Shown piece by piece: positions 47,504 to 49,161 of a stretch of DNA of 64,000 nt. A model generated the notes under the pieces. It was not told the origin of the DNA and searched no databases. It saw only the letters and a list, made by a program, of their open reading frames with translations. How positions within the stretch are numbered: position 1 is the stretch's first letter; each line of letters opens with the position of its first letter. A program made the position numbers and the translations under genes. This stretch comes from a bacterium (GTDB lineage Bacteria > Elusimicrobiota > Elusimicrobia > UBA1565 > UBA9628), in the NCBI GenBank assembly GCA_021799485.1, contig JAJZAK010000006.1, positions 1-64,000 on the forward strand, written 5' to 3'.

Positions 47504-47992
47504 TCATGAAGCCTTCCGGCGGCTTCGGCCGCATCGCATGAGCGCGGCAAGGATCTCTTTGGGGCGTTGGCCGCGAGCCTCGATGCGAATGCGGCGGGCG
47601 TCGCCCTGGGAATGGAAGAACCTTAGATCGAGACGGTCGCCCGGAAGGTAGATGTCGCCCGATTCGGGCCACTCGATCGCGATGACGCCCGCGGGGTCCT
47701 GGAGCGCCGCCTCGATTCCAACGTCGCCCGTATGAGCCGCGGCGACGCGGTAGAGATCGAAGTGGTGGAAGACGAGGCCCTTGCGGCGGTAGATGCGTTC
47801 GAGGGTGAAAGTCGGGCTCTGGACGGGCGCCGGGATTCCGAGTCCCCGGACGAGCCCCGAGACGAATGTCGTCTTGCCGCTGCCGAGCTCTCCTCTCAGG
47901 CAAAGGATGTCCAGGGGCTTGAGGAGGCGCCCCATGCGCTCTCCCAGCGAGAGCGTCTCGTCCGGGCCTCTCGTATTAAGGGCTTGCGTCAC
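47504..47992 (-). CDS. tsaE: tRNA threonylcarbamoyladenosine biosynthesis protein TsaE, start rebuilt by a fold-back insertion
   Basis: 162 residues. Walker A is RGELGSGKTTFVSG (Lys40); other TsaE blocks are SPTFTLERIYRR, FHHFDLYRV and IEWPESGD. TsaE is the ATPase of the t6A modification complex with TsaB and TsaD. The GTG at 47992 is the best start available today. It lies inside the left arm of a fold-back element, and no Shine-Dalgarno precedes it. Removing the element rebuilds an ATG start reading MVVNTRGPDET, which overlaps the thiL end. The open frame also continues upstream through the element, so an N-terminally extended product is possible. Confidence 0.88.
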   Translation of the reverse strand: MTQALNTRGPDETLSLGERMGRLLKPLDILCLRGELGSGKTTFVSGLVRGLGIPAPVQSPTFTLERIYRRKGLVFHHFDLYRVAAAHTGDVGIEAALQDPAGVIAIEWPESGDIYLPGDRLDLRFFHSQGDARRIRIEARGQRPKEILAALMRCGRSRRKAS

Positions 47993-48244
47993 AATAATAT
48001 GAGTGATTTGGAGGCCCCTATCCGAACCGGATGCAAGGCGCGAGGAGCGAGCATACCGAGCGTATGTGAGCGATTGAGCAACGCCGCAGGCGGCCGGAGA
48101 AGGGCCTCCCGCTGCGGGCCGTCCGCTTTCGGGCTGCGACATCGTTGCGCTCGCCTTACAGGCCTCGGCCTGCGCGGCTCGCGCGCCTCGTCTCGCCTCG
48201 AAACTCGGACGGCCAAATCAATCATATTATTGTGACACAAGCCC
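47980..48244. mobile_element. 265-bp fold-back (MITE-like) element with 31-bp terminal inverted repeats and TAA target duplication
   Basis: The left end 47980-48010 and right end 48214-48244 are inverted repeats matching at 29 of 31 bases. The flanks are direct TAA repeats (47977-47979 and 48245-48247). The inside is also an imperfect inverted repeat: around 48020-48090 it holds GCAAGGCGCGAGGAGCGAG-like sequence whose counterpart recurs in reverse around 48135-48210. It has no transposase gene, so it is non-autonomous. It splits thiL from tsaE, and its two arms supply the present thiL TAG and the tsaE GTG. Gene-free bases 47993-48243 hold only this element. Confidence 0.85.
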
Positions 48245-49161
48245 TAACGACCATGCCGTTGGCGGAACTGGTCGTACCCGTCTTGGATGGATCCGGACAC
48301 GCCGTCGCGCCTGGTGAATATCCCGATCCGGTAGGCGGAGGGCAGGGCGGCCATGAGCCTGCCAAATCGTCGGGGGGGGACGCCGAAGAGTAGCCCGTAA
48401 TCCTCTCCGGCGTCCGGGTTTCCTGGCGCGATAGGGACGCGGTCGAGCCTATAGGACACTCCGGAGGCCCGGGCGATCTCCGCGGCCGAGCGCGAGAGAC
48501 CGTCCGAGTTGTCGATGAGGGAGGTCGCGAGCCTGGAGCGCGCGAGCACGCGGGCTGCTTTAAACTGCGGCTCCGGCTCCCAAAACGCCCGGACCGCCCG
48601 GCCGCTCTTGATTCCCCGGCGCAGTTCGGACAATCCTTTTCCAGCGAGGCCCAAGGGGCCGACTCCGCACAGGATGTCCCCGGCGCGGGCCCCGGAGCGT
48701 CGAAGGATGAAACGGGGATCCGCCTCTCCCAGGGCCGTCAAGCCGAAAAAGACTCGCTCGGAGCGCACCAGGTTGCCTCCCAGCAGGGCGGTCTTGAAGA
48801 GGGCGCAGTCGGCCGAGAGCCCTTCAAGAAATTCCTGGAAGCGACGCTCGGGCGTCGAGCCCGGAAATCCCGCGGTCGCGAGGGCCGCGAGGGGCTTGAC
48901 GTCCCCCATGGCCGCGAGATCGCTTAAATTGACTCGCAAAAGTTTTCGGCCGAGCCTCTTGAAATCCGCCCAACGGCTTTCAAAATGAGTCCCCTCGACA
49001 AGATCGTCGTGGGTCGCGACGAGAACCTTGCCGGAGCCGATCTTGAGGAGGCCGGCGTCGTCTCCGGGACCGAGAAGAAGAAAAGGGAAGCGCTGCCGCT
49101 TAAGCCGCGCATAGATGCGATCCAGGAGGCGTGCCTCGCCAATCGAGGAGAGGAATGTCAC
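48244..49161 (-). CDS. thiL: Thiamine-monophosphate kinase
   Basis: 305 residues. Conserved parts: GPGDDAGLL near residues 31-39, THDDLVEGTHF, RVNLSDLAAMG, GGNLVRSERVFFGLTALG and NSDGLSRSAAEIA. It phosphorylates thiamine monophosphate to the active cofactor TPP. The stop is TAG, formed by TA of the flank plus the outermost base of the fold-back element; without the element the stop would be TAA after the same Arg codon. The start overlaps the nnrD stop by 4 bp. Confidence 0.92.
   Translation of the reverse strand: MTFLSSIGEARLLDRIYARLKRQRFPFLLLGPGDDAGLLKIGSGKVLVATHDDLVEGTHFESRWADFKRLGRKLLRVNLSDLAAMGDVKPLAALATAGFPGSTPERRFQEFLEGLSADCALFKTALLGGNLVRSERVFFGLTALGEADPRFILRRSGARAGDILCGVGPLGLAGKGLSELRRGIKSGRAVRAFWEPEPQFKAARVLARSRLATSLIDNSDGLSRSAAEIARASGVSYRLDRVPIAPGNPDAGEDYGLLFGVPPRRFGRLMAALPSAYRIGIFTRRDGVSGSIQDGYDQFRQRHGR

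Follow-up and report, generated by a model that had tools for sequence, protein, structure and literature searches.

The window, a stretch of 64,000 nucleotides from contig JAJZAK010000006.1 (assembly GCA_021799485.1), carries on its minus strand a thiL-like gene of the AIRS kinase family (PF00586/PF02769; 48244–49161) and, after it, tsaE (PF02367), and between the two lies a fold-back element of 265 bp (47980–48244, assigned to neither strand) inside a TAA duplication. The arms at 47979–48011 and 48213–48245 pair at 31 of 33 positions (94% complementary). With TAA counted as the target site duplication (left copy 47977–47979, TTA on the coding strand; right copy 48245–48247; both given for the plus strand), the ends are terminal inverted repeats of 32 bp, the left at 47980–48011 (plus strand) and the right at 48213–48244 (minus strand), matching at 30 of 32 positions. 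A 23-bp end motif, searched with up to 3 mismatches, was found at two places in the whole window, which are the two arms (expected in shuffled sequences: 0), and the folded strand was 9.75 standard deviations more stable than shuffles. Reading frames within the element gave no Pfam match, so that it holds no transposase gene. No Rfam family reached its gathering score in the element, and a sub-threshold match to guanidine-III at 47935–47987 (E 0.12) was regarded as chance. Promoter- or terminator-like sites were looked for inside the element and none was found.

On the minus strand, thiL now ends in CGT TAG (stop codon 48246–48244), the G of which is the outermost base of the element. The native start of tsaE persists as a remnant, in which ATG GTC GTT runs into the element and stops (MVVRACVTII*; 48222–48254, minus strand). 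Inside the left arm, a GTG in the tsaE frame lies at 47992–47990; tsaE beginning there would span 47504–47992 (minus strand, 162 aa) and start with MTQALNTRGPDET. The initial annotation of this DNA, made from the sequence alone, had described an element with TAA direct repeats at 47977–48247, repeats matching at 29 of 31 positions, an outer base that completes TAG as the thiL stop and a GTG in the frame of tsaE; the observation is real, the extent is essentially the one given above, and both codons are present.

Empty sites and copies of the element

A genome of the same genus (G001), whose thiL protein is 91% identical, contains the exact empty site. The junction CGGCATGATCGTTAATACGAGAGG is uninterrupted there, with thiL reading CAT GAT CGT TAA and tsaE reading ATG ATC GTT AAT ACG, and the two blocks that match the flanks of the element overlap by exactly the 3-bp duplication, so that the TAA doubled here stands in a single copy. 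Another species of the genus (G002, 74%) shows the same kind of thiL/tsaE overlap, with the junction CGCATGCTCTTTAGG. Since the overlap is found in both, it is ancestral, and the insertion is younger than the split of the genome studied here (G000) from G001. Several further copies of the element also have unoccupied sites in G001, for example that on contig C33, where G001 has a TGATG stop–start overlap.

Five nearly full copies at 94–100% identity, all without a recognisable protein, were found in the own genome; the four other than the one at thiL–tsaE lie on contigs C41, C2, C3 and C52 and are 94–97% identical. Partial copies occur on contigs C50, C24 and C54, together with more distant subfamilies, and a search of 37 genomes, the own one counted, found related elements in 18. 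At elements with resolved ends the duplications were exact TAA or TTA, with TCA at one further site. At the right junction of the C41 copy (L091), the element-coded RACVTII takes the place of the final residues of a HemL-like class-III aminotransferase.

These results agree with the empty site that had been rebuilt in the initial annotation, with the tsaE ATG inside the end of thiL: the site sought in relatives exists in G001 and differs from the reconstruction by one substitution, G001 and G002, which lack the element at this junction, both have an overlapping ATG, and there are further copies, in the own genome as in relatives, rather than one sequence common to all relatives. Short length with terminal inverted repeats, target duplication with an empty site, dispersed copies and the lack of an internal transposase identify the element as a non-autonomous mobile miniature inverted-repeat element (MITE).

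Exact matches to the core motif in named GTDB genomes came mostly from Elusimicrobia metagenome assemblies and, several times, from one Myxococcales assembly; one match lay in a record titled Bifidobacterium breve MAG (L164), possibly a mislabelled or contaminated assembly. The exact end motif gave none in GTDB genome contigs. The same core was observed under CTAG-type ends in other Elusimicrobia (L143, L160, L161, L162) and under GCGTCCGGCG-type ends with TAA/TAG duplications in the Myxococcales MAG (L140–L168), where the resolved sites were too few to judge a preference for stop codons. A core under such unlike ends points to an exchange of ends or to movement between phyla. For a phage or plasmid origin no match was found.

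Stop and start codons at the element ends

For the placement of the family, 32 independent insertions were collected, the element was removed computationally from each, and a codon-usage model was used to call genes on the restored empty sites. The target duplication overlapped a stop codon in 17 of the 32 insertions, compared with 30 of 1,342 other TWA (TAA/TTA) sites at the same loci (Fisher p ~2e-18), exact fractions that are not to be over-read with a simple gene caller and a sample of this size. The 22 gene ends located at insertions had offsets of 0 or −1 and no others. With offset 0 the stop is the duplicated TAA; with offset −1 (seven gene ends, including thiL) the first G of the element completes TAG. 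Five insertions lie where the stops of convergent genes overlap, and the C33 and C17 insertions lie in TAATG stop–start overlaps.

The preferred target is YTAA (C or T before TAA) with G+C around it. Weighted by this context, TWA sites predict 14–25% of all insertions and 24–42% of the non-genic ones at stops, and 61% of the non-genic insertions were observed there; the value of 42% was obtained with a model trained on non-stop insertions only and that of 24% with a model trained on all insertions. Target preference together with the loss of gene-breaking insertions thus explains most of the stop placement and leaves a modest excess. Special selection for stop codons is therefore mostly accounted for by target context, with a residual excess of p = 0.03 against the strictest model, and no evidence of a host benefit of the insertion was found. 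Hence, from the earlier interpretation of the locus, the mobile insertion, the empty site, the TAG and the in-frame GTG stand, while the proposal that such an insertion is unusual and may be selected for was not borne out, insertions into stops and the use of the element's G being mostly expected.

Read outward, the arm is ATTATT GTG ACG CAA GCC C, followed by the target. As the phase is fixed, the GTG falls in frame at every site where a codon starts with the target A. Read inward from a TTA site, all three frames are closed within 23 nt. Inward closure and outward starts were surveyed for 12 terminal-repeat types and counted in support of the explanation preferred below.

Four genes, namely tsaE, tsaD, a gene for a HisC-like aminotransferase and mnmE of genome G004, have in frame a GTG or ATG that lies in the element 13 nt from the element end, and at all four the old start is cut off or displaced. 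Upstream of tsaD in the own genome, a 44-bp stub of the element remains (C54:27064–27107; L016/L089), and no bacterial start codon other than its GTG lies in frame ahead of the conserved RVLGIETSCDET; tsaD of G001 reads ATG GCT CTT CGA GTC, and the TsaD peptide expected from the arm start would be MTQALRVLGIETS. The tsaD frame on C54 (L089:2596–4992) is open for 799 codons, far past the TsaD domain (28–308), and its remainder gave no confident Pfam match. In G002, the element tip at tsaD (L124), TTATTGTGACGCAACCCC, matches and has the same phase relative to the gene; this tip is of the G002 end type and may thus stem from an independent insertion. At the HisC-like aminotransferase gene on C3, the native GTG AGC GCC GCC GTT is now continued by element sequence. 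At mnmE of G004 the arm bears ATG, with residue 8 as the first of the TrmE_N domain; on contig C6 of that genome (L191, around local position 2762), a jag-like R3H gene ends with its stop codon directly before this ATG. Out-of-frame beheading was not seen among the arm ends examined, where only survivors are visible. Judged from their reading frames, all four genes would be translated from the arm starts, and the three further genes make use of the GTG at tsaE more likely; four in-frame starts alone are no proof, since only in-frame cases would survive.

The GTG of the left arm very probably serves as the new start of tsaE. The resulting TsaE would be of near-native length, with MTQAL in place of MVV and 2 residues more than in G001. 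An unlikely, though not negligible, alternative start is the ATG at 48142 inside the element, from which the frame is open through tsaE (47504–48142, minus strand) and would encode a protein of 212 aa with an element-coded leader of 50 residues. No Shine–Dalgarno sequence is visible ahead of this ATG, and the near-native length obtained from GTG argues against it, as does the tsaD stub, which keeps only the element end with its sole in-frame start. The GTG also stands without a Shine–Dalgarno sequence, and folding of the full-length transcript places it within the terminal stem (predicted unpaired probability ~0). With a ribosome footprint imposed at the thiL stop and extending to +15, its predicted unpaired probability was 0.3–0.5; a footprint to +12 gave no rise. 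Access to GTG by translation-coupled opening of the stem is possible, as is processing of the stem by RNase III, which has been reported for Correia elements (PMC10969869).

Fold, origin and comparison with known elements

Fifteen elements from six genomes (G000, G001, G003, G004, G007 and G035) were alignable over their full length in spite of different end types and share a branched fold of 94 pairs, with 96.4% of cells paired. Both sides had changed in 51 of these pairs, 34 of them outside the terminal repeats. No shuffle reached the fold values, and slid versions dropped to ~40% paired. At the ends the outer 13 bases vary in concert and AATAATATG is nearly fixed. Both strands of the element fold about equally, on which ground a strand-specific RNA function was rejected. 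Double changes in pairs could also be produced by repair between the arms, and with both strands folding equally well any RNA function of the fold is putative.

Taken together, it is highly likely that a MITE inserted into overlapping genes and that its design and target keep thiL and tsaE usable. A putative transposase acting in trans would move the MITE, producing 3-bp duplications at T-W-A sites. After the split from G001, the element would have entered the TTA that overlaps the thiL stop at codons 3–4 of tsaE. Its outermost G would then have turned T-TA/A into T-TA/G, a thiL stop, and the outward GTG, 13 nt from the element end and in phase with the target A, would have become the substitute start of tsaE. 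Opening of the hairpin end that conceals this GTG may be aided by ribosomes arriving at the thiL stop. The frequency of such placements would follow from target preference and the loss of harmful insertions, host benefit being unneeded. Mobility, empty site, TAG and in-frame GTG are observed here and recur at other genes; the supply of a stop and, very probably, of a start hence follows from the build of the element and its landing site, not from one lucky event. Whether the ends have in addition evolved, as a property of the element itself, into an expression-safe cassette, with stop-like targets, a stop-restoring first base, inward stops and an outward start in fixed phase, is doubtful; if so, insertions would survive in tightly packed or overlapping operons, with translation coupling kept via the hairpin.

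Positive selection, by which hairpin, stop and start would regulate or stabilise the thiL–tsaE mRNA as proposed for ERIC/NEMIS, is improbable. The fold is very stable and its core strongly covarying, and co-transcribed ERIC/NEMIS affect the stability of mRNA or undergo RNase III cleavage (PMC2229807, PMC10969869); against this, like placement recurs at numerous genes that have no relation to one another and is for the most part what target preference predicts, the copies are probably young because they are 94–97% identical, and no sign of retention at thiL–tsaE was seen outside the own genome.

As to the source of transposition, the profiles PF01609, PF13586 and PF13359 gave no match in G003, G004 and G007, three genomes rich in copies, and a PIF/IS5-type transposase was rejected as the source on this basis. 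In the own genome, neither the IS1380-like transposases nor the PF01609 matches have matching ends; the IS1380-like copies lie at C36:1–1200, C55:45300–46600 and C26:1780–2370, some of them at contig ends, with no link to the element found. Among the matches listed, there was no matching end pair at a transposon-like distance and, for the three transposase families searched in the draft genomes, no autonomous element with the same ends. Members of the IS5 family of the IS1031 type have a 3-bp TNA duplication and ends starting with G. The element resembles them in its 3-bp T-W-A duplication, its ends beginning with GG and similar terminal repeats, but membership is not claimed, as no transposase of the family with matching ends was found.

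The covarying branched fold over the whole element and the absence of the three tested DDE families from three nearly complete genomes would also fit mobility as a structured RNA or as a substrate of single-strand DNA, in the manner of REP/RAYT or IS200/IS605, with duplications of other origin. This is very improbable, given that clean 3-bp duplications and symmetric GG/CC ends fit a double-strand DDE mechanism and not single-strand Y1, and that both strands fold about equally. A derivative of REP/RAYT or IS200/IS605 itself, which has no duplication and asymmetric hairpin ends, was rejected because the element has duplications and symmetric ends. An ancient, vertically inherited intergenic palindrome without any insertion has next to no probability in view of the G001 empty site, the target duplication and the near-identical copies dispersed in the genome.

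MITE insertion with preserved neighbours gives a testable account of how mobile DNA may enter packed, overlapping operons without breaking them, by a stop-like target, an inward stop and an outward start. Provided that translation does begin in the arms, transposon sequence now forms the start of at least four housekeeping genes, of which three serve tRNA modification. A separate question is posed by the covarying core, which is shared under many different ends in genomes that showed no matching transposase.

The closest known precedent, likened by description alone, would be the MITE Chunjie of Geobacter uraniireducens (Chen et al. 2008, PMID 18660544, cited in PMC10969869), described there with 178–235 bp, tens of copies, terminal repeats and no transposase. 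Short length, several copies, terminal repeats and the lack of a transposase are common to both, whereas element-supplied stop or start codons are not mentioned for Chunjie in that review. ERIC, NEMIS/Correia, RUP and YPAL are likewise small, repeated, hairpin-forming and without transposase, and are often co-transcribed with their neighbours; empty and filled sites are known for YPAL, in-frame fusions of a repeat-coded peptide are known for such repeats, and their duplications are mostly TA or variable (PMC2229807). The fusions reported for them join element frames to genes, whereas here a substitute start codon lies 13 nt from the element end; the present elements further differ in sharing an Elusimicrobia-typical core under many different ends. 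A literature search returned no earlier report of recurrent end-supplied stop or start codons, which is not proof that none exists. What seems new in comparison with these systems is the recurrent use of element ends as stop and probable start codons, together with a covarying core under many ends.
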